From positions 144,675 to 155,071 of the forward strand of contig MU631633.1 of assembly GCA_026770615.1 (NCBI GenBank): a stretch of DNA of 10,397 nt, written 5' to 3'. This stretch comes from Pavlovales sp. CCMP2436 (lineage: Eukaryota; Haptophyta; Pavlovophyceae; Pavlovales). Positions 173 through 10,397 of the stretch are shown in pieces. Both the position numbers and the translations under genes were made by a program. Under the pieces are notes generated by a model. That model saw only the letters and a list, made by a program, of their open reading frames with translations. It was not told the DNA's origin and did no database searches. Position 1 is the first letter of the stretch, and every line of letters starts with the position of its first letter.

Positions 173-214
173 GCCGCGCGGGCCGCAGAGGTGCAGACAC
201 GGCGGGAAGCGCGG
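173..214 (+). CDS. Helicase exon 1 in window: motif VI
   Basis: Encodes GRAGRRGADTAGSA after completing a codon begun in an upstream exon outside the window. GRAGRRG is helicase motif VI, whose arginines contact ATP in superfamily 2 helicases. It is preceded by an acceptor (ctatag at 172) and ends in phase 1 before GTATTG at 215. The sequence left of it (1-172) is AT-rich intron with no coding signal; a 13-nt direct repeat lies at 1-13 and 56-68. Confidence 0.8.
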
Positions 215-3200
215 GTATTGTTTTAATTTCGTCTTTCTTCTGGTTTTGTCTTGTTTCTTCTCTTTTGTTTTGTCTTTCTTCTTCTGTTTGTCCCCGACTT
301 GCAGTCCTTACAGAGGTGCAGACACGGCACGCAATGCAGATGTGCTCCTTTCTTCTTCTTTCTTCTTTCTTCTTCTCGTTTCTTCTTCAGGGGGGAGGGG
401 GGAGACGCAGACACGGCGGGCAGCGCAAGTGTGTTCTTTTTTCTTCTTGTTTCTTCTTTCTCCGCGTTCTACTTTTTTTAGCTTTTTGGTATTTTGTTGT
501 CTAGGGTTGCCGCGTGATGCCCCATCCCCCCCCCCCAATACACACACACATAACACCTAACCCCTCCCCTAGTGCTCCTTCTCGACGGCCCTTCGATCGG
601 CGAAGGCCTCCTACCGCCCGACTTATCTCTTCTTCTCTTTCTTATTTTATTTTATTAGGGTTGTCTCAAGATGACCCCCCGCCCGCACCCACCCCACCCC
701 TCCCCACCCCCACCCCCTCTTACCCCTTAGTGCTTCTTCTCGACGGCTCTTCGATCGGCGAAGGCCTCCCGCCGCCAGACGCGCCTGCCCTCGCAGCGTT
801 GTTCGCGCTCAGGTAAAAAGCTTAAAATCTGAAGAAAAAAAGGAAGAAAAAAATGTAATCAGCTCGAACAGACGCGCCTGCACTCGCAGCGTTGTTCGCG
901 CTGAGGTCAATAGCAGAAATCATAAGGAAAAATCAAAAATCAAAATATAATGTAATCTATATATATATGTGTTTGTGTGTGTATATATACATAATCAGCT
1001 TAAACAGGCGCGCCTGCACTCGCAGCGTTGTTCGCGCTGAGGTCCAAATAATCAACAACAACAACAACTTTTCATGCTGTAGTCATCATCACACCTATAT
1101 TCATTGTCAAGATCATTATCATCACAATCCTCAATCGTTTTTTGTTCTTGGTATCTCACTGCAGATGTCATGAAAGCCACCTCCCTCACCGCCTAGTGCG
1201 TTTGCGGGTGTGTTGAAGGGTCATACTAAGTAGCTAACTGATAATGTGGGGCTGAGCCGCTCGCCCTGCAGCCGACACTCATTGCCATCTTAAATCTCAT
1301 CACAATCCTCAATATTTAATTATGATTAGTATTCTTCTTCTTCTTCTTCTTGGTATAATTATAATATAGGGCTAATAATTATGATGATGATATAGGGCTG
1401 AGCCGCTCGGCCCCCAGCCGACATTGGCGTGGCCCGCTTTGCTCAGCTCTGTGCGTGGCGGCGGTGATGGGAACGCTGGGGGTAAACAATTATATATATA
1501 TATATATTATCATGTTTTTTGGTTGTTATTTGGGCTGTTAGTAGTTGATGGCGTGGCCCGCTCTGCTCAGTTCAGTGCGGGGCGGCGGTGATGGGAAGAC
1601 TGGTTTTTTTTTTTTATGTCACGCTTTTTTGCGTTTTGGTTTTTGTTGTTGTTCTTAGTAGTAGTAGCAGCAGCAGCAGCAGTAGTCGTAGTATACATAT
1701 GAAGTTAGTACTGGTACGCGTATCTCTTGTTCCTGTATATACTAATCCTGATAATTGAATACTAGGCGAGTCTCACGGGCACGCAGCTGGCGGTGGTGGC
1801 CCGGGGGAGGCGGCTGGGGCAAAGGTGCGTTATTTCTCTAATCACTATATCAAGTATATGTAATATAATCTTATCGAGCATATAGATAAGACATCTCGGT
1901 ATATTAGTGACACGCCAATCCAACCCTAGCCTCACTGATGGAGCCGGGATCCTGTTCTTTGTCTTGCCGGCAAGGGATTAACATAAGCGATTTTTGATTC
2001 CGAATAACTGTAAACTGGTTTTTAACCAGAACGGTTTTGTTATTTTCCTAGCAACCAAGACCTGGCTCCAACAGTTACCTAGCCTTTAGAACTCAAACTC
2101 AGCCCTGAGATCTAATCCCAACACAAATTCTAACTGTATTAAATAAATTCACATTTGCTCCCGCTAGTGAGCTGGCTGTGTAAATATCTATAAAAACGTC
2201 CGGCCCCGTAAATGGTCTCCCAGTCTCCCAGTGGTGCAGCAACACACTGTTAATCTAGGACCGCTTCCGAACACACAGATAGCGTCAAGCTCTGCAAATT
2301 TGATTGCAAAGTAAATTGTATGAACTGGGATATCGCACCAGCAGCTCCCTCTGCATATCGCATAGAATCCATTAGCAGAATTTGGATCTGCAATCGGACA
2401 CTGAATTCATTTCGAAGGTGCTTTCGTTGTCAAGTTAGCTGATTTCTGCGAATTTAAGTGTATGAACAAACTTGCGTGGCGTTGGTCGCTGAGTCCGGAT
2501 CAGGATAAATTGATAGGTATTGGCATTCTTACACTAGTCAGTTCCAATTTGTTGTCGACAAAAAGGTGCTCTTGCTAGCGAGTTGGCTGAGCTCTGCGCG
2601 GCTGCGTTTCCTGCGCGAGGAAAGGAAACCCTTTCGTTGCAGCTTCGTGAGCTGGAGTGTGTATGAGAGGACATCAACTCACATCAAGTCCAAAACTAAC
2701 GTCACAGGTGCTCTCACTCGCGAGCTGGCTAAGCTCCGCGCGTCTGCGCTCTCTGCGCGAGGAGGAGGTGCGTCATCAACCCCACAACCCCCCCACAACT
2801 CCAGCACAGCTCCAACACAACCTCCCCGCAACCCACCACAACCCCAGCACACATCCACCCCTCGTCCAATACCTACCCCATCCACCCATCCACCCATAAT
2901 AAAATAACATAAATGTGTCTACAGGAAATCCTTTCTTCGCAGCTTAGCAAACTCGAAGTGAGGCTCGAAAAAAGGCGCCAAGCTCAAGCGCGGGCTCGCG
3001 CAGGGGAAGTCGCAAAGGCAGGGCAGGTGCAGGCAGCCATGCCTGGTGCTGGCGCGCAGGCGAGAGGCGTTGCTCTCGACTCGCCAGGCGTCCTGGGCAC
3101 TTTTTCTGAGGCGTCCGGGCAGTGGGATGAGGCGTTCCGCACTCGGCGCGAGCTGTGGCGTCTCACGTTGCGCTTCGAAGCAGCGGTACTGAACATTCTG

Positions 3201-3635
3201 AAAAAAAATGGAAATAAATATAAGAAGTACTGCTGATTATAATCATTAATATTGAGTACTATATTCATTAAGTGCTCTGTTTGTACTGTGGCTTCTCACG
3301 TTGCGCTTCGAAGCAGCGGTACTTTTGATATCTGTCATTGTTGCTATCTAACACTCAGAGATATTATATGTTCAATGTGTTGTTGCTATTACTATTCATA
3401 TGATTGTTGTTTTAAAGCGATTACTGTTATTGTTGTTAGTACTATTAATAGTATTGCTATTATTTAACCTTTTTTTATAAATTATCATAATGATCTAATT
3501 CTTATTCGTATTATTCAAACTATTAATAGTTGTGATTTACTGCTATTCTTATTAGGTGCGCTTGCACTGCTAATAGTTATTAGTATTGTTGTTGTTATTC
3601 TCTCATTATCAGTTGCGCTCGCACTGCTAATACTA

Positions 3636-3666
<31 letters not shown>

Positions 3667-6600
3667 TCATCATCATCTTTATTTGTAGGTGCGCTCGCAT
3701 TGCGCGTCTTTCCTACAGCCCGGCCGCCTCGTTCGGCTGCGGCTGCCTGCGAGACTCGCTAAGGTATTTATTTTTTTCTTGGTGCATGTTAAGTATGTAT
3801 TGGTATTAATAAAAAAAATTGTATTATAGGGTAAGCGTAAAATAAAAAAATGATCATCATACTCATAATTGTAAGCATAGTTAAATTATTCCGCTTGAGT
3901 TGTCGTTTTATTAACAACAACAACACCACCAGTAACAGTAACAGCAATAGTTCTCATGCTAATACTCAAACGCATATTTATAACAATACCACCAAATAAT
4001 AATAAAGGCCTCGGTCTCTGCGGGTGCGGGTGCAGCTGCGGTGGAGGCTGCGGAGCAAGAGGCGGGAGTTGCGAACGGCGAGGAGGTAAGGGCTGTTAAT
4101 TATCGTCCCCCTTTTTCCCCTTTTTTTCTATTACTAGTTCGTGTGTCTGATTGTGTGTACTCGCTCTGTCCGCATCCAGTGCCTTTCCACACTACTCGTC
4201 CTCACCCCCCCCCTCCCCCCCCCCCCCCCCCCCCCTCCTCAGGTCTGGGCCGTCTTGCTCAAGGCACGCAGCCCGAATCCGCGCGTGCCGGCTGAGGAGG
4301 CGCGCCGCACCATCGCCGCTGCCGCCGCAGCGGCCGCCGCCACAGCAGGCGCGCTGCCCTCGCTCCCGCCGACTGCGCTAGGCAAGGCGGCGCAAGTAGC
4401 GGCTGGGGCGGACGGCGGCGCGTTTCTCGACATCGCGCTCGTACTCGCCGCCAAGCCCAGCGCGGGCGTAGGAGGAGTGGGCGGGGCCGCAGACGCCGGC
4501 GGTGGCCGTGGCCGTGGTGGAGGCCGCGGCGGTGGCGGCGGGCGGGGCGCGGCGGGCCCGGCGCCGCTCGAGGTTGTCCGGGTTGCGTGGAGTGCGCTCA
4601 CCGGCCTCTCGCCCGTCCGGCTGTGGCTGCTGCCCGATTTGCAGCGCGCCCCCGCGCGCGCCGCCCTTGCGCAGTCTTTGTCCGCCACATCTCGCCGGTT
4701 CGGAGGAGCACCGCCTTTGCTCGACCCGGTCGCGGACATGGGCGCGAGGCTGGAGCTGCCTGCGCTCCCGGACTCGAAGCTCAGCCTCGCCGGACTGGTA
4801 GGGCGCATCGAGGCGTTGGAAAGGCGGCTCTTCGAGCTCCCGCCATACGCTACCCTGGATTCGACCCCCCCCAGGGATTCTTCCTCCCCGAGCTTCTCGC
4901 ACGAGCCACAGCCGTCTGCAGCGCAGGCACCCGCGGGCACCCGCGCGCTTGAGAGTCGGCAGGCGGACAGGGTGCTCCTCGACGAAACCGGGCTCTCCCT
5001 CGCCTTCGAGGCGGCGCGCGTGCGCGCAAGGCTGGCCAGCTCGGCAAGGGGGCGCGTGGCCCTGCTCGCCCAGGGCGGGCGGACGCAGGGGCCGCGAAAG
5101 TCGGGCGCGGCCGCAGCACCCGCGATGACGCGCGTGCTGCGCACGCTGGGGCTTCTCACGCCAGTGGCTGGATCGGTGGCTGCCGGCGGACCTGCGGGCG
5201 TCGTTGGCACAGTCGCCGCCACTAGCACCGCATGTGGGAGCTCAGCGCAGCAGCAGGTCGGGCAGGGCCGGTCTACGCAGCAGCTGCTGCTGACTGCAAA
5301 GGGGCGGGCTGCGTGCGAGTTCAACACGGCCGACGGGCTGCTCTGCGCCGAGCTGCTACTCGGCGGAGGCTTCGCGCGCTCGGCTCCAGGCGAGCCACAG
5401 GCAGGCGGCAGCTCGGCAGGCGGGGCGGCGGCAGGCCAGGGCGGTGGCTCGCTGCTGAGTGTGCCCGAGGCCTGCGCCGTGCTCGCCACACTCGCGAACG
5501 CAGAGGGCCCGCAGCCGCGCGCGCCACCAACCTCGGAGGTACTTTTTTTCTTTTTTCTTTTTATAATAGTTGTTTTAACGCCTCACCACTTGCAGCCCCT
5601 GTCGGGGGCGTAGGTATTCGCTAGCTCAATTTGCTGCCGCTCTCCACTGCCTGCAAGCCACTGCCTGCTCTCGCCCTGGTAATAGTCTCGGAGGTATAAT
5701 GATCGAAATGAAATATGGAAAGAACGTTAAAAATCGAACGATACAAGATATTGATTTGTATAATATTTGTATATTACTCAAGGTATTAGCTAGCCCACTT
5801 TGCTGCCGTTCTCCACTGCATGCGAGCCACTGCCTGCTCTCGCCCTGATAATAGTGCTAAGAGGAAGTCGCTTCTAGCTCTATTGTAATCTTGCTAATGG
5901 GAAGCTAAGTAGCCCTATTGTGGCATCGCAGGCAGGAGCTACCCTACCCCATTCTTGCCATGGCGTGCTCTAACTCTGACTGCCTGGCCCTCTATTTTGC
6001 CTTCTGCCTCGCAGCGCGCGGCGGAGCTGGGCGCCAAAATGTCGGCCAAGAAAGCTTCGGCCTCGCGCGAGAGCGCCACCGAGTTGCCGGCCGAGCTGCG
6101 GTCGCTGCACGCGCGCGTCCTCGCCGCCGCGTCTGGCGTGCTCGCCGCGTGCGGCGAGTGTGTGTTCGGCTGCGACGAGGAGGCGTACGTGGGCGCACTA
6201 TCCGCGGCGCCGATGGCCGCGGCGCGAGCGTGGGCGGCGGGCAGCAGGTGCGTCTCGTGGTTGGCTCGCTAGGCGTGTTACACACCTTACCGTGTAACGC
6301 ACGCTTCTAACATCCGTCTTTTCTAACGCCCGTGTGTGGCCACGCGCAGATTCGGCGAGGCAGCGGCGCTGAGCGACGAGATGGTGGGCATGCTCATCCG
6401 CACCCTGCGCTCGGTCGGCGAGCTGGCGGCCGAGTTCGCGAGAGCCGCGGCCGCACTGGGCGACGAAACGTTGGTCCGTGCCCCACCGCCTTTGGGCCTG
6501 GCTGCCTGCCAATCTTGAAGCTGCTTCTCTAAGCGGCTGCCTACTTATTTCGTACATCCCCGCGTGCCAACCGTCCCCTTTCATCTGCCCCGACCGTCCC

Positions 6601-6845
6601 CTTCTCTCTGCCGGCAGGTGGCTCTCTTCGAGCGCTGTACCGAGGCGGTCCAGCGCGGCCTCGTGTGCGCGCCCTCGCTCTACATTCCGGGCGAGGGCGA
6701 GTTTGACGACGACGAGGAGGACACCCGGGCGGCGAACGAAAAGAAGAAGCGCAGCGCCCCCGCCGAGCCCATGCAGCAGCCCGCCTCTGCTAAGAGGGCG
6801 CGCGTCGAGATACCGGCGGCCGAGACGCTGCCTGACGACGACTGA
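173..6845 (+). CDS. MTR4: Ski2/Mtr4-family DExH-box RNA helicase, 3' part of gene, 12 exons
   Basis: Partial at the 5' side. Proposed join: 173-214, 731-812, 1396-1481, 1766-1824, 2708-2767, 2925-3185, 3689-3763, 4008-4085, 4243-5538, 6015-6247, 6350-6473, 6618-6845. All introns are GT-AG and all phases agree, giving 873 codons and a TGA stop. Seen in order: motif VI GRAGRRG (residues 1-7), a charged helical arch segment, FLQPGRLVRL (about 204-213), LLDPVADM (about 406), RIEALERRLFELP (about 435), VLRTLGLL (about 545), AKGRAACEF (about 599), the DSHCT end GDETLVALFERC...PSLYI, then an acidic tail with KKKR and KRAR. Family knowledge: these ATP-driven 3'-5' helicases feed RNA to the exosome. 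The FLQPGRLV arch motif and the NLS-like tail favour nuclear Mtr4 over cytoplasmic Ski2, but this is an inference. Odd points: the usual RLTYNM-type motif after motif VI is not recognisable, and exon 9 carries Ala- and Gly/Arg-rich inserts. Confidence 0.86.
215..730 (+). repeat. Intron 1 with echoes of exon 1 (3' end) and exon 2 (5' end)
   Basis: A 516-nt intron, mostly T/C-rich polypyrimidine with CTT/TTC runs, and poly-C at 526-537. Two partial copies of the end of exon 1 (AGAGGTGCAGACACGG... pattern) lie at about 312-338 and 401-430. A copy of the start of exon 2, with its own AG acceptor, lies at 571-622. The intron sequence before that copy (gggttg...ccccc) also resembles that before the real exon, so the unit of about 155 nt looks tandemly duplicated. 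The apparent ORFs here are composition artefacts. Confidence 0.75.
731..812 (+). CDS. Helicase exon 2: end of RecA2 domain
   Basis: Joins in phase 1 to exon 1 to read GSA-VLLLDGSSIGEG, which fits the strand and loop that follow motif VI in Ski2/Mtr4 proteins. It continues with a proline-rich turn and APALAALFAL. It starts after a pyrimidine-rich acceptor ending ttag (730) and ends in phase 2 before GTAAAA (813). Partial copies of its 5' end lie upstream (573-622) and two copies of its 3' end lie downstream (869-905, 1005-1041). Confidence 0.75.
776..1041 (+). repeat. Tandem triplication of exon 2 end plus donor
   Basis: Three units start at 776 (real exon end), 869 and 1005. Each begins with a 37-nt sequence ending in AG followed by GT. 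The two downstream copies share two differences from the exon, both at synonymous third positions, so one was probably copied from the other. Intron sequence ending aatcagct(c/t)(g/a)aa is also repeated between units. An AT/GT microsatellite expands the second unit. Confidence 0.88.
1250..1280 (+). repeat. Echo of exon 3 start
   Basis: A copy of the first roughly 30 nt of exon 3 (gctgagccgctcg...cagccgacac) within intron 2, 146 nt upstream of the real exon. The base before the copy is not an AG acceptor, so it should not splice. The rest of intron 2 (1042-1395) has AT-rich sequence, a TTC repeat (1333-1350) and no other coding signal. Confidence 0.8.
1396..1481 (+). CDS. Helicase exon 3: segment after the RecA2 core
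   Basis: Reads R-AEPLGPQPTLAWPALLSSVRGGG and a glycine-rich end when joined in phase 2 to exon 2. Its position matches the family segment that normally contains a QFRLTYNMxLNLLR-like helix. The spacing and the final ALLSSVRG fit, but the conserved residues do not, so the protein is divergent here. Acceptor tatag at 1395; donor GTAAAC at 1482, phase 1. A 5' echo lies at 1250-1280 and a 3' echo at 1551-1603. Confidence 0.62.
1551..1603 (+). repeat. Echo of exon 3 end
   Basis: A 53-nt copy of the 3' part of exon 3 (original starts at 1429) in intron 3. In the exon frame the first differences are synonymous (Leu, Ser, Ser, Arg) and only the last two codons change amino acid. It is followed by GT and a T run. 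Flanking microsatellites: AT repeat at 1491-1507 and a GTA/GCA repeat at 1657-1690. Confidence 0.85.
1766..1824 (+). CDS. Helicase exon 4: Gly/Ala/His-rich linker
   Basis: Short exon encoding a glycine-, alanine- and histidine-rich linker between two helical parts. It is supported by acceptor actag (1765), donor GTGCGT (1825), and phases matching both neighbours (in phase 1, out phase 0), rather than by homology. No echo of this exon was found. Confidence 0.5.
1825..2707 (+). repeat. Intron 4, longest intron, with several echoes of exon 5
   Basis: An 883-nt intron of mixed composition with few microsatellites. Diverged copies of the start of exon 5 lie at 2155-2178 (18 of 22 comparable bases identical), 2418-2450 and 2566-2622. 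They become more similar toward the real exon at 2708, as expected for serial duplication of increasing age. Otherwise I see no gene, RNA or element in 1825-2150. Confidence 0.7.
2566..2660 (+). repeat. Intronless fused echo of exons 5 and 6
   Basis: Positions 2566-2624 copy exon 5 and 2625-2660 copy the start of exon 6, directly joined. In the present gene these exons are 157 nt apart. The join falls at the exact splice junction apart from one missing base, which would break the frame. In the exon-5 part, seven of nine changed codons are synonymous. It may be a retrocopied fragment, or a copy predating gain of intron 5. Confidence 0.78.
2708..2767 (+). CDS. Helicase exon 5: first arch helix
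   Basis: Twenty codons, phase 0 on both sides, reading VLSLASWLSSARLRSLREEE. This frame is chosen because a diverged copy at 2566 differs from it almost only at third codon positions in this frame. It corresponds to the family region where a short hydrophobic SF.QF helix leads into the arch coil. Acceptor cacag at 2707, donor GTGCGT at 2768. Confidence 0.62.
2925..3185 (+). CDS. Helicase exon 6: charged arch coil
   Basis: Eighty-seven codons, phase 0 on both sides. It begins EILSSQLSKLEVRLEKRRQ, a charged amphipathic helix typical of the Mtr4/Ski2 arch stalk. An Ala/Gly-rich stretch follows, then a second charged helix ending RELWRLTLRFEAA. Acceptor ctacag at 2924, donor GTACTG at 3186. The 3' end and its donor are duplicated at 3286-3323. 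Confidence 0.7.
3286..3323 (+). repeat. Echo of exon 6 end with donor
   Basis: A 38-nt copy of 3153-3190, differing at one base, including the GTACT donor. It lies 133 nt downstream in intron 6. Because it is nearly identical it is probably the youngest echo in the gene. It forms a decoy 5' splice site. Confidence 0.92.
3554..3688 (+). repeat. Tandem triplicated acceptor region of exon 7
   Basis: Three units: AG plus (g/t)tgcgct(t/c)gcactgcta at 3554-3574 and 3611-3632, then the real acceptor at 3687-3688 and exon 7. The AT-rich intron tails between units are also alike (taatagttatt..., taatactaatt...), the second expanded by an ATT repeat (3636-3665). In both copies the exon sequence runs into TAA after five codons. 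The rest of intron 6 (3324-3550) is AT-rich without a gene. Confidence 0.85.
3689..3763 (+). CDS. Helicase exon 7: arch/KOW entry motif FLQPGRLVRL
   Basis: Twenty-five codons including FLQPGRLVRLRLP. FLQPGRLV is highly characteristic of the Mtr4 arch just before the KOW (fist) domain, which binds structured RNA and adaptor proteins. Acceptor ttgtag at 3688, donor GTATTT at 3764, both phase 0. Two copies of its acceptor plus first codons lie directly upstream (3554-3574, 3611-3632). Confidence 0.8.
4008..4085 (+). CDS. Helicase exon 8: Ala/Glu-rich linker in arch
   Basis: Twenty-six codons, rich in Ala, Glu and Gly, phase 0 at both ends, joining FLQPGRLVRL to VWAVLLK of exon 9. In the family this is a low-conservation acidic loop before the GWGVVVNF-like strand. 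Acceptor taaag at 4007, donor GTAAGG at 4086. No echoes seen in the flanking introns. Confidence 0.65.
4205..4235 (+). repeat. Poly-C tract at exon 9 acceptor
   Basis: Nine C, one T, then 21 C, directly before tcctcag and exon 9. It acts as the polypyrimidine tract of intron 8 (4086-4242). Such a tract is prone to length variation and sequencing error, but it lies outside the exon. Confidence 0.9.
4243..5538 (+). CDS. Helicase exon 9: KOW to first half of DSHCT domain
   Basis: 432 codons without interruption. It starts VWAVLLKAR, matching the family GWGVVVNF strand. An Ala-rich run (about 4315-4345) and a Gly/Arg-rich RGG-like stretch (about 4495-4560) follow and are not typical of the family core. 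Then come LDIALVLAAKPS, LLDPVADM (4717-4740), RIEALERRLFELP (4804 onward), VLRTLGLL (5134), AKGRAACEFNTADGLLCAELL (5296 onward) and LSVPEACAVLATLANAEG, all in family order. It ends in phase 0 before GTACTT. Preceded by a 31-base nearly pure C tract and an acceptor ending ctcag (4242). Confidence 0.88.
5539..6014 (+). repeat. Intron 9 with two diverged echoes of the exon 9 end
   Basis: A 75-nt direct repeat lies at 5612-5686 and 5781-5855. Read in one frame it gives LAQFAAALHCLQATACSRP, similar in pattern to the end of exon 9 (VPEACAVLATLANAEG) and to the family LSxEQxxALLSxL helix. After the first copy, CTCGGAG|GTA (5687-5696) repeats the exon 9 donor exactly. The open frame continuing from exon 9 to TAG at 5611 is intron read-through. 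Confidence 0.6.
6015..6247 (+). CDS. Helicase exon 10: DSHCT domain
   Basis: Joins in phase 0 to exon 9. It reads RAAELGAKMSAKK, then helices LRSLHARVLAAASGVLAACGE and YVGALSAAPMAAARAWAAGS. These match the DSHCT pattern in which a long helix is followed by a segment usually containing a Trp (YxWAxG). Here ARAWAAGS keeps the Trp-Ala-x-Gly pattern. Acceptor tcgcag at 6014, donor GTGCGT at 6248 in phase 2. Confidence 0.82.
6350..6473 (+). CDS. Helicase exon 11: DSHCT domain
   Basis: Phase 2 junction gives R-FGEAAALSDEMVGMLIRTLRSVGELAAEFARAAAALGDETL. It matches the family sequence FxEvcxLtDvfEGslIRxlRrLdELlrQ...aAkaiGnxeL almost position for position. The aa-x-x-iG-x-x-eL ending resembles Mtr4 more than Ski2. 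Acceptor gcgcag at 6349, donor GTCCGT at 6474, phase 0. Confidence 0.85.
6568..6617 (+). repeat. Duplicated polypyrimidine tract at exon 12 acceptor
   Basis: Two adjacent copies of accgtcccctt(t)...ctctgcc, the second ending in the ggcag acceptor of exon 12. This is the same kind of local duplication as the junction echoes, at smaller scale and without exon sequence. Confidence 0.7.
6618..6845 (+). CDS. Helicase exon 12: C-terminus, acidic and NLS-like tail, TGA stop
   Basis: Begins VALFERCTEAVQRGLVCAPSLYI, matching the family terminus (...xRDIVFAASLYL), with several substitutions. Ordinary Mtr4/Ski2 proteins stop at about this point; this one adds about 52 residues. The extension has an acidic cluster (EFDDDEED), a KKKR patch, a KRAR patch and a final DDD. 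The basic patches could be nuclear localisation signals (inference). Acceptor ggcag at 6617; TGA at 6843-6845. Confidence 0.85.
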   Translation: MALFERCTEAVQRGLVCAPSLYIPGEGEFDDDEEDTRAANEKKKRSAPAEPMQQPASAKRARVEIPAAETLPDDD

Positions 6846-8278: not shown

Positions 8279-9118
8279 TCAACACTTTCTCGTCGCATGC
8301 AGTGTGGGTCTGCTCATCCCGTCTGTCGTTTTGAGCAAACCCATTAGATACACCACAAGAGCTGTTGAAGCCATGCACGAGCCGCGAAAAAAATTCTCGA
8401 CACCACTCTGAAAGGAATTCTGTGTATTGATAAACGTGAATTTGATATGCACATTTTCAATATTGAGCACCTGTGCCAGCTTCTTTATTGCCGTGTACGA
8501 CTGCGGGTCGTTCTCACGTACAGAACCCGCACTTCCAGGGTCGTACACTAGCGCGCATCGCTCGTTATTTGAAAAATATGCAACAACGACCCCTCTGTGC
8601 TGAATTTTTTCGGTGCCTACGCGCATGTTGAAGAGAAAATACGAAATCCCTATTTTATCCCCATGTGCCTCGCATAAATTCTTGATGTACGTTTCCATCA
8701 ACGGCCTTACACACGCAATGGCCTCGTCCGATAAATCAACTGGACGCATAAAATGAAAGGTTGGATGTCGTTTAACCACATCAGTGAATGTCTCTGGTAA
8801 ATTCAATGTGACGCATAGTTTTAAAGACTTTACTCTATGCTTTTCTTCAATGCTGGTAAAATTTTTGCCTATTGATTTCGCGCTTCTCAAATTTAGCGAC
8901 GCGCCCGGCTTATGTACCAGATACTTCACAAACCCTTCGAAAGTTGCTGCTCGACTTAATGGTCGGGTCGCATCCCAATCTGTGCAAACTGCTTCTGCCC
9001 ACGCCCTACCCAAACGTGTACTTTCAATACCCTCGACGTGCCGGTCGTCGACGGATATCATTTGCTCGTCCTCAAATTTGAGGGTGATGTCGTCTTTCGT
9101 CGCGTCGAGCTCTACCAC
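8279..9118 (-). CDS. C48/adenain-like cysteine protease domain, downstream half of interrupted ORF
   Basis: 280 codons, or 261 codons from the first ATG (9059-9061). The frame is continuous with the ORF at 9170-9637 except for TGA at 9170-9172. Counting from 9118: His174 in QHRGVVVAYF, Asp193 in ALVYDPGS, Gln233/Gln237, and Cys248 in GSCMASTALVVYL. The order His-Asp-Gln-Cys, the roughly 19-residue His-Asp spacing, and a hydrophobic strand before and helix after match Ulp1/adenain-type cysteine proteases, which cleave SUMO or viral precursors. The Gln-Cys spacing (11 or 15) is longer than the usual 6-7, so activity is unproven. Such domains are common in large DNA viruses and some transposons. 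No introns; less GC-rich than the helicase exons. Confidence 0.55.
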   Translation of the reverse strand: MVELDATKDDITLKFEDEQMISVDDRHVEGIESTRLGRAWAEAVCTDWDATRPLSRAATFEGFVKYLVHKPGASLNLRSAKSIGKNFTSIEEKHRVKSLKLCVTLNLPETFTDVVKRHPTFHFMRPVDLSDEAIACVRPLMETYIKNLCEAHGDKIGISYFLFNMRVGTEKIQHRGVVVAYFSNNERCALVYDPGSAGSVRENDPQSYTAIKKLAQVLNIENVHIKFTFINTQNSFQSGVENFFRGSCMASTALVVYLMGLLKTTDGMSRPTLHATRKC

Positions 9119-9169
9119 AAGATCTCCTGATGCGATGGACCACAGGCTGTTTGGCTTCTGCCTTACACG

Positions 9170-9637
9170 TCAAACATCGATGTTAACTTCAACTGCTGTT
9201 TTTCGCAGCCCCGAGTCAAACATATTCGCAAAACAACGCTTAAAAACCAGGTTTTCTCGAGCGCGAGTTGCGACCTCGTTAAGCCAAGCCATGCCTAACA
9301 CGAGCGCATCGTCGTTTGCTCCAAGTTTATACGTTGCAGTTGCATCGGCTTCAATAGTACCGTACCGATTGAGTCTAAGACTAATGAAGTGAATACGTGA
9401 CCGAGCCACGGACAAATTTATCTTTAGGTTATCTCGTCCTTTCATCGTCCACTCTCCCACTAGCTCGATCACCTCTCCTTGCACGTTAACAAATTTCATA
9501 TTCCGAGTCGTATCGGTCTCAAACGAATATAGTTTAAAAATGGTGTCTAACAAAAGCTGACGTGCTTGTGTCTGAGGGACGACGCGCGGTACCAATGCTC
9601 GCAACCTGCGTCTCGCAGTACGGATACGCAAATCCAT
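9170..9637 (-). CDS. Upstream half of the protease-like ORF, unknown domain
   Basis: ATG at 9635-9637, 155 codons, TGA at 9170-9172. It starts with a basic Arg-rich segment (RIRTARRRLRALVPR), followed by alternating beta-like stretches (MKFVNVQGEVIELVGEW, KINLSVARSRIHFISLRL) and VLGMAWLNEVATRARENLVF. I recognise no family. After the TGA the same frame continues without another stop into the protease-like half, so both probably formed one protein of about 450 residues. It is divergent from the F-box gene, with about 200 nt between the starts. Confidence 0.55.
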   Translation of the reverse strand: MDLRIRTARRRLRALVPRVVPQTQARQLLLDTIFKLYSFETDTTRNMKFVNVQGEVIELVGEWTMKGRDNLKINLSVARSRIHFISLRLNRYGTIEADATATYKLGANDDALVLGMAWLNEVATRARENLVFKRCFANMFDSGLRKTAVEVNIDV

Positions 9638-9841
9638 TGTTATTTGTAGTCATTTTTTGTTTTTAATATTTCGCATATGTTCGTTTTTGATGCGACCAGT
9701 GCAGTTCATCCGACGCCGCCGCGACCGCTTGAGCCCGCGCCCGCGCCCGCGCCGCACCTGCTCGTTCGTTCGGCAGCGCTATTTTTAAAAAATACACAAC
9801 AAAAAACGGGAACGAGACGCCCCGACTCTGAACGTGCACCT
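9638..9841. promoter_or_regulatory. Divergent intergenic region between the protease-like ORF and the F-box gene
   Basis: 204 nt between the two divergent ATGs. The part nearest the minus ORF is T-rich. A TATA-like attttaaaaaatac-type sequence lies at about 9780-9795 for the plus direction. The plus reading frame is open back to an ATG at 9677, but that part is proline/alanine low complexity and the F-box follows the ATG at 9842. Promoter role is inferred from layout only. Confidence 0.35.
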
Positions 9842-10189
9842 ATGTTGGCGCTGTCGCACATGAAGGTGACGAACCCATCGTGGCCGAGCTCGGCGTCGCT
9901 TCTACTCAGTCGCATCGACGACGACTCGCTTCGCGCCTTGCTCAAGCACCTCGGCCCGGCCGATTTGCTGTGCGCGCGGCTCGCCTGCAAGGCCTTTCGT
10001 GCGCACTCGAGCCCGCCGCCACCGACGCATTTCAAGGACTTCCTGCGCACGCGCTCGCGGACCGTGTACGCCATTGACAACCTGCAACTCCTGAGCGCCC
10101 ACTACGTATCGGCTGCTTATCCTTCAACCCGTCACATTCTTGACCTAGTCGCATCCATTGGCAACGTGACTCGCGCAACATCGAAATAA
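9842..10189 (+). CDS. F-box protein N-terminus (F-box/ankyrin gene)
   Basis: From ATG 9842 the frame reads MLALSHMKVTNPSWPSS, then LLSRIDDDSLRALLKHL, GPADLLCARLACKAFRAHSS. This is an F-box pattern (LP..ll..il..L...dl......C+.fr) that would recruit Skp1 in an SCF ubiquitin ligase. FLRTRSRTVYAIDNLQLLS follows, typical of the start of F-box/ankyrin proteins in algae and giant viruses. The frame then loses resemblance and ends at TAA 10187-10189, while the ankyrin repeats continue in another frame. The real exon probably ends at about 10100. An alternative start is ATG 9677. Confidence 0.65.
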   Translation: MLALSHMKVTNPSWPSSASLLLSRIDDDSLRALLKHLGPADLLCARLACKAFRAHSSPPPPTHFKDFLRTRSRTVYAIDNLQLLSAHYVSAAYPSTRHILDLVASIGNVTRATSK

Positions 10190-10397
10190 GAGAAAATACC
10201 TGCAATGCTGCGGCCAGCGCGGGTCATCTAGGCGCGCTAACATGGCTGCGCGCTCGAGGCGGCATGTGGAGCCCTTTGACTAGCTGCATGGCGGCATGCA
10301 ATGGGCACCTCGAGGTGCTGCGATACTTGCACGAGCACGGTTGCCCGTGGAATGCGGTCCTCTGTGAAACGGCAGCTAGGAATGGGCAGCTCGAGAC
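10144..10397 (+). CDS. Ankyrin-repeat region (GCPW type), runs off the window
   Basis: Open from 10144 to the window end in the +1 codon frame. It shows NTCNAAASAGHLGALTWLRARGG, then SPLTSCMAACNGHLEVLRYL followed by HEHGCPWN, then AVLCETAARNGQLE. This is two and a half repeats of the GHLEVLRxLxxxGCPW ankyrin type. The frame differs from the F-box ORF. The spacing between LLS and NTCNAAA is about 50 nt more than the repeat register predicts, which fits a short intron. However, none of the GT-AG pairs I tried inside that gap restores the frame, so a frameshift is also possible. Confidence 0.7.

Follow-up and report, generated by a model that had tools for sequence, protein, structure and literature searches.

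Described systems and the helicase locus

Among the closest described relatives of the pattern reported here is a short tandem duplication across an intron–exon boundary of the potato RdRp gene, which placed a partial exon copy with 3′ splice signals beside the exon (PMC4974935). We compare this and other systems, as set out in the parts of the sources consulted, with an RNA helicase gene of the haptophyte Pavlovales sp. CCMP2436, encoded on the plus strand of a 10,397-nucleotide (nt) stretch (hereafter the window) that forms the last 10.4 kb of contig C319 (GenBank MU631633.1, positions 144,675 to 155,071; source assembly GCA_026770615.1, 119 Mb in 703 contigs). Introns 1, 2, 3, 4 and 6 of this gene contain partial copies of flanking exon edges (termed echoes here), and the pattern is not restricted to the helicase gene, being found also in kinase, DEAD-box and SNF2-like genes on other contigs. 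Local duplication across splice junctions is supported as a route of intron growth.

In potato as here, splicing removes the duplicated exonic sequence. In the potato gene, however, a cryptic donor in the first copy gives rise to a new intron and added exon sequence, whereas in the helicase gene the old intron absorbs the copy; the helicase gene also records many events, on both exon sides. The potato event is recognised by an adjacent, same-orientation duplicate that contains the boundary; in the helicase window all 12 copy pairs are direct, with offsets of 89–229 nt, and the splice dinucleotide is kept in 13/16 of the exon–echo pairs profiled below. A second described route is intron gain by tandem duplication, by which an exonic segment containing AGGT is duplicated and becomes an intron (PMC3443670). 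There too, local duplication adds splice sites and splicing hides the duplicate, but the junctions duplicated in the helicase gene already existed, and it is existing introns that lengthen.

Introner elements form related, dispersed families, some with target-site duplications or terminal inverted repeats (PMC9860276). They share with the echoes the repeated addition of sequence to introns genome-wide, and differ in that echoes match the adjoining exon. An introner origin was considered and set aside: in introns 4–8 (5/11 introns searched), the exon-derived parts had no dispersed relatives except for a 112-nt, 76% match on contig C449 to window positions 3543–3663 in intron 6, which overlaps the echoes of exon 7. 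Dispersed repeats do occur in these introns and are not echoes. One of about 110 nt lies inside intron 4 (2177..2287, plus strand; genome search), most of its other copies being 88–93% identical among the 40 of 540 candidates scored; the other, at 2645–2695 beside the end of an echo in the same intron, is a 31–46-nt sequence found at eight other genome sites with 87–100% identity.

In tandem exon duplication, including that of mutually exclusive exons, a copy of the exon lies beside its source with conserved splice sites and a diverged intron. An echo, by contrast, is part of an exon with one splice site and cannot replace the exon; the copies found are all partial, and none amounts to a whole exon bounded by two splice sites and of compatible frame. 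The earlier note knew of no description of the pattern. Single events of this class are already published, as the potato gene illustrates; for their repetition within a gene and across genes, no description was found in the literature searched, which covered few subscription papers. Work by Gao and Lynch from 2009 and by Zhuo from 2007 reportedly may hold closer precedents.

Partial exon copies in the helicase introns

The gene product corresponds to the C-terminal two thirds of an MTR4/SKI2-type RNA helicase, with a Pfam MTR4 beta-barrel match (E=1e-9) and MTR4 as its best solved relative (E=1.4e-18). A 12-exon model was built from reading frame, splice sites and homology, and the joined frame is open over 873 residues up to the stop codon. 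A Joint Genome Institute (JGI) protein of 1361 residues, P0121, encoded on a contig of 4,979 nt, agrees with the model at 873/873 positions (its residues 489–1361). This contig is probably a transcript, because it is too short to hold the gene with its introns, of which the window part alone takes up 6.7 kb. Given the complete identity and the intron-less contig, the exon edges of the model would be those used in the message, which would join the 12 exons and lack the echoes; the message is seen here through the protein of this one intron-less sequence. The earlier note had named RNA with a different exon structure as one result that would overturn it; the sole intron-less sequence found has the exons of the model. 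A home-made gene finder (used for sampling only, with strand choice unreliable in GC-rich DNA and matches reviewed by eye) returned nearly the same exons, differing at the starts of exon 6 and exon 12, although this agreement is not independent, as its training set included the window introns.

Each 60-nt exon edge was compared with its own flanking intron by Smith–Waterman alignment against 200 dinucleotide shuffles (minimum p=0.005; the edge test). Across introns 1–11, 8/22 edges scored above every shuffle (p=0.005): both sides of introns 1, 2 and 6, the donor side of intron 3 and the acceptor side of intron 4. Scores of these edges were 36–80, except for the start of exon 7 in intron 6, which was marginal (23 vs. 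a shuffle maximum of 22). When the test was repeated with fresh shuffles, 7/22 edges gave p≤0.005 and 8/22 p≤0.01; the reverse-complement control scored 8–21, with 0/22 edges at p≤0.005 and 3/22 at p≤0.05 against fresh shuffles. The earlier note had claimed echoes for introns 1, 2, 3, 4, 6 and 9 and had seen none in introns 5, 7, 8, 10 and 11. The edge test bears this out for all introns but intron 9 (476 nt): no edge of introns 5, 7, 8, 9, 10 or 11 rose above the shuffles, and intron 9 was rejected as echo-bearing (p=0.71 and 0.11 for its two edges). Intron 9 does contain a direct repeat pair on the plus strand (5612–5686 and 5781–5855; 75 nt, 91%), for which no exon origin was detected by self-BLAST or the edge test.

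Self-BLAST of the whole window (low-complexity filter, E≤0.01) returned 12 pairs, all within positions 186–5855 and none of them inverted; no pair fell inside exon 9 and none in 6.0–10.4 kb. Without the low-complexity filter, weak GC-rich families (62–76%) appear in exon 9. The sense orientation and correct side ascribed to the copies thus hold, with every pair direct and the significant edges matching their own flanking introns. On the donor side, an echo starts within the exon and reaches the junction or passes it; on the acceptor side, it starts close to the AG and stops within the exon. The exonic part of an echo measures 15–56 nt, or 91 nt in one echo that fuses exons 5 and 6, and identity is uneven (75–97%).

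All exons and echoes are on the plus strand, and exon positions rest on the model and the protein match unless noted otherwise. Intron 1 follows exon 1 (173..214; helicase motif GRAGRRG; open model) and contains two echoes of its end, at 311..339 (79% over 29 exonic nt) and 402..430 (both by self-BLAST), and an echo of the start of exon 2 at 573..622 (exon positions 1–50, 90%; self-BLAST and edge test) in which the TAG acceptor is kept. A 147-nt, 73% match around the start of exon 2 was also considered, and was discounted beyond the exon, the intron part being no better than dinucleotide shuffles (p=0.88). Exon 2 (731..812) is followed in intron 2 by two echoes of its end, both with GT kept: 869..905 (exon positions 46–82, 95%; self-BLAST and edge test) and 1005..1041 (92%; self-BLAST). 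Its end also gives an 84-nt pair of 80% identity in self-BLAST. Further into intron 2, an echo of the start of exon 3 (1250..1277; exon positions 1–28, 89%; edge test) does not keep the AG. Exon 3 itself (1396..1481) is echoed at its end within intron 3, at 1549..1603 (exon positions 30–84, 89%; self-BLAST and edge test).

Exons 2 and 3 are thus each divided between both flanking introns near a single breakpoint: positions 1–50 of exon 2 are found upstream and 46–82 downstream, and positions 1–28 of exon 3 upstream and 30–84 downstream. Each resembles an older copy cut in two at a single site, the halves now being separated by a complete exon together with some intron.

For exon 4 (1766..1824), no echo was found on either side. 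In intron 4, a fused echo at 2566..2656 consists of the start of exon 5 (56 nt, 82%) and, directly after it with no intron 5 between, that of exon 6 (32 nt, 75%); exons 5 and 6 themselves lie at 2708..2767 and 2925..3185. The end of exon 6 is echoed in intron 6 at 3286..3318 (97% over 33 exonic nt; self-BLAST and edge test), with GTACT kept and the sequence unrelated beyond. Two echoes of the start of exon 7 (3689..3763; FLQPGRLVRLRL, aligned to FLQPGRLVKVK of MTR4) follow at 3556..3570 and 3613..3627, each of 15 nt with AG kept; the intron flank of the second matches too (p=0.002), and the start of exon 7 forms 57-nt units of 72% identity.

The remaining exons are exon 8 (4008..4085), exon 9 (4243..5538; MTR4 beta-barrel domain, by Pfam and protein match), exon 10 (6015..6247), exon 11 (6350..6473) and exon 12 with the stop codon (6618..6845). 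Downstream, two neighbouring open frames on the minus strand (8279–9649; 296 and 159 aa) have no Pfam match above cut-off, and open frames with F-box and ankyrin repeats occupy 9650–10397, at the contig end. A search of IMG/VR for relatives gave 11 pattern matches, 0 of which were confirmed by tblastn.

Subtraction of the echo offsets from the intron lengths leaves 516−(125+89+158)=144 nt for intron 1, 583−(93+136+146)=208 nt for intron 2, 284−124=160 nt for intron 3 and 503−(133+133)=237 nt for intron 6. The offsets thereby make up about 72, 64, 44 and 53% of these introns, and the trimmed lengths (~144, 208, 160 and 237 nt) fall in the size range of the echo-free introns 5, 7, 8, 10 and 11 (102–244 nt). 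Intron 4 (883 nt) keeps 741 nt after the same subtraction; it also contains the ~110-nt dispersed repeat described above.

Copies in other genes

Loci elsewhere in the assembly were read in part only. Loci L028–L031 were chosen for a helicase domain match with a short open frame, not for echoes, and L017 is an arbitrary stretch. Three cases, all on other contigs, are clear. In the kinase gene of L017 (minus strand), the start of an exon is copied twice, CAG included, in the preceding 900-nt intron, each copy measuring 38 nt and the two lying 59 nt apart. The DEAD-box gene of L028 has one 56-nt echo of 80% identity. In the SNF2-like gene of L030, presumably SMARCAL1-like, self-BLAST rather than the edge test revealed two acceptor-side echoes and one donor-side echo, one of which belongs to an 89-nt, 83% pair that extends over ~28 nt of intron as well. 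Once joined, the exons give a Pfam match spanning the junction in L028 and in L017 (31.6 bits in the latter, just below the cut-off of 31.7); in L030, the Helicase_C match stops before the junction.

Among 39 gene-finder introns at other loci, 5/78 edges gave p≤0.005 and the reverse control 0/78. The edge in L026 is an 11-nt echo (p=0.002, weak), that in L006 lies in a 193-nt tandem pair, and that in L022 lies in sequence also present in L010. The GC-rich introns of L024 and L025 that were tested showed no echoes. The DEAD-box protein of L024 has its best match in Exanthemachrysis gayraliae, which we take to be a pavlovophyte haptophyte. That match (83% identical over 54% of the query) bears the identifier MMETSP1464, given as E. 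gayraliae RCC1523 (PMC11306096).

Several other features of these loci were observed. At L019:5846–6210 and L030:3513–3754, the last 14–24 nt of the upstream exon are repeated at the 3′ end of the intron, ending in AG, as might be left by intron gain through duplication or through insertion with a long target-site copy. An element of ~170 nt with inverted ends, resembling a miniature inverted-repeat transposable element, is present in several copies (L030:2431–2604, L032 and L033). Positions 137–1275 of L030 are part of a repeat, most copies of which are 89–95% identical among the 40 of 594 candidates scored. L017:7805–9400 holds a 532-aa open frame with a Barrier-to-autointegration-factor domain (E=5e-10).

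Origin of the copies and intron growth

Fifteen echoes (10 in the window and 5 in other genes, omitting the second copies E2end_c1 and E7start_c1 and the second L017 echo) differ from their exons at 80 sites, of which 14, 18 and 48 are at codon positions 1, 2 and 3; 47 differences are synonymous and 33 non-synonymous. Simulations in which the two branches are given equal time predict 36, 34 or 30 synonymous differences for a neutral echo whose exon evolves at omega 0, 0.1 or 0.3 (P=0.011, 0.001 and <0.001), and the excess at third positions is likewise significant (P=0.018, 0.007 and 0.001). If both copies evolve at omega 0.1, 64 synonymous differences are predicted, and a count as low as 47 is rejected (P=0.0007); with both at omega 0.3, the 46 predicted fit (P=0.43).

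Across 16 pairs aligned at the junction (second copies counted; L028 and the exon 6 start echo omitted, their junction register not being clear), exonic identity is ~79%; the splice dinucleotide reaches 91%, intron bases 3–6 55% and bases 7–10 61%, and bases 11–30 fall to 33 and 38%, compared with 30% in mismatched pairs. AG is kept in 8/9 echoes and GT in 5/7. The earlier note held that many copies include the splice dinucleotide and a piece of intron. The dinucleotide is borne out; for the intron part the picture is mixed, the next 60 intron bases being similar (gapped alignment, p≤0.05) in 5 of 15 comparisons (14 between exon and echo, one between two echoes). By sequence comparison, exon and echo appear to relate to one another as homologous exons of two diverged gene copies would. 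Such a profile would reflect either very fast intron turnover, a template from a diverged locus, or two haplotypes mixed in the assembly.

We interpret the echoes, with a probability of roughly 0.6, as the debris of repeated short-range duplications across one splice junction, filtered by splicing. When one end of the duplicated segment lies in an exon and its other end in the intron alongside, one complete exon and one partial copy would result; the partial copy, lying inside the enlarged intron, would be spliced out, leaving the message unchanged and the event tolerated. Duplications within an exon, or of a whole exon, would alter the message and mostly be lost, and repeated junction-spanning events would produce longer introns and decoy splice sites. 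The copies would be exon edges, in sense orientation, on the right side and with a splice site, because no short duplication can extend from an intron into an exon without taking in the junction. Spacings in the helicase gene are about 57–230 nt. With two echo–echo pairs dropped, 9/10 of the window pairs link an exon edge with the intron flanking it, against 0.48 expected at random (P=0.008), where the randomisation places tolerated pairs at random and the window pairs are not fully independent; random units of 57–180 nt predict 0.29–0.41 for such pairs.

Several observations weigh against this interpretation. Significant intron similarity beside the junction is missing from 10/15 flank comparisons, and the 97% echo of exon 6, unrelated to its source after 5 intron nt, is hard to fit to a plain tandem unit. 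The spread of echo identities (75–97%) does not indicate a single age. The excess of junction events may be partly a detection bias, because duplications confined to introns decay at both copies and low-complexity masking hides part of them. In the edge test, the reverse control tops the shuffle maximum by one point at 3/22 edges (the acceptor sides of introns 2 and 8 and the donor side of intron 6). Of the five significant gene-finder edges at other loci, one is clear (L017), two are weak (L026 and L027) and two lie within other repeats; in L028–L031, both strands, 4/38 edges gave p≤0.01. Moreover, the searchable part of the genome yielded no second diverged copy of window positions 2925–5538 or of L028:2554–4000; L030:137–1275, tried as a probe for a second haplotype, was uninformative, being the repeat mentioned above.

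A weaker inference is that many of the copies were templated by a diverged version of the same locus, for example when diverged homologues underwent out-of-register repair or exchange, given that exons and splice dinucleotides are alike, introns are unlike and synonymous differences are in excess. In a more specific form, which we put forward tentatively and regard as doubtful, exons would be the only islands of homology between diverged gene copies whose introns have lost the ability to pair, and out-of-register repair of breaks in exons, using the diverged homologue, would leave half-exon scars in the introns on either side, making intron growth a by-product of exon-centred recombination. 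This would account for the shared breakpoint at which exons 2 and 3 are divided, for the homologue-like profile of exon and echo, and for survival hidden by splicing. That duplication across a junction needs no diverged template at all, being plain neutral tandem duplication by slippage or unequal sister exchange with the intron halves erased by very fast indel turnover, seems to us unlikely; by itself, such duplication predicts a longer stretch of shared intron. Complete or near-complete units are indeed present (the L017 copies, the 89-nt pair of L030, the 84-nt exon 2 and 57-nt exon 7 pairs), and the introns are AT-rich and full of simple repeats; against this stand the dissimilar flanks, the abrupt loss of similarity beside the exon 6 echo, the synonymous excess over a neutral echo, and the conservation of splice dinucleotides relative to the next four bases (91% vs. 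55%), although the last is partly due to the unchangeable dinucleotide of the functional copy. The proposal that introns here grow by tandem duplication of junctions accordingly survives in part: the copies lie near their source, in direct orientation and on the proper side, and trimmed lengths fit the echo-free introns, whereas as the whole story it falls short, the adjoining intron being mostly not recognisably copied and exons 2 and 3 being split near one breakpoint.

The resemblance of exon and echo to two haplotypes or homologues, the fit of both copies at omega 0.3, the junction profile and the partition of exons 2 and 3 at one breakpoint would also be expected if pieces of a second, diverged haplotype had been stitched beside exon edges during assembly. 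We nevertheless judge such an artefact quite improbable: the sequence runs examined contain no short N gaps (the sole internal N run, of ~1 kb, is in L010), no window echo is more than about 230 nt away from its exon, a distance that any long read would cover, three-copy arrays exist, and omega 0.1 for both copies is rejected, with echo identity spanning 75–97%. Transcript- or complementary DNA (cDNA)-templated repair that returned exon pieces near their source would account for the sole echo crossing an exon–exon junction, in which exon 5 runs straight into exon 6 with intron 5 missing (2566–2656), but such an echo would arise just as well if the template lacked intron 5 or if that intron was acquired only later than the duplication. 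Since most echoes keep an intronic splice dinucleotide that spliced RNA lacks, and are in sense orientation and adjacent to their source, an RNA origin is very unlikely. We give still less credence to echoes being functional alternative exon edges or poison exons under selection, despite the synonymous excess, the retained AG and GT, and echo peptides (GTLRYASPHLG and AHRIGQT) that retain residues resembling the consensus: acceptor-side echoes run on into intron and not into the rest of the exon, donor-side echoes used as mini-exons of ~25–34 nt would, judged by eye, shift the frame, and echoes are absent from the sole intron-less sequence found.

If partial exon copies do accumulate repeatedly, local duplication combined with a splicing filter would provide a simple route of intron growth. 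Genome annotation may then overlook such growth or take echoes for exons, and each event would leave behind a datable sequence pair and a decoy splice site.

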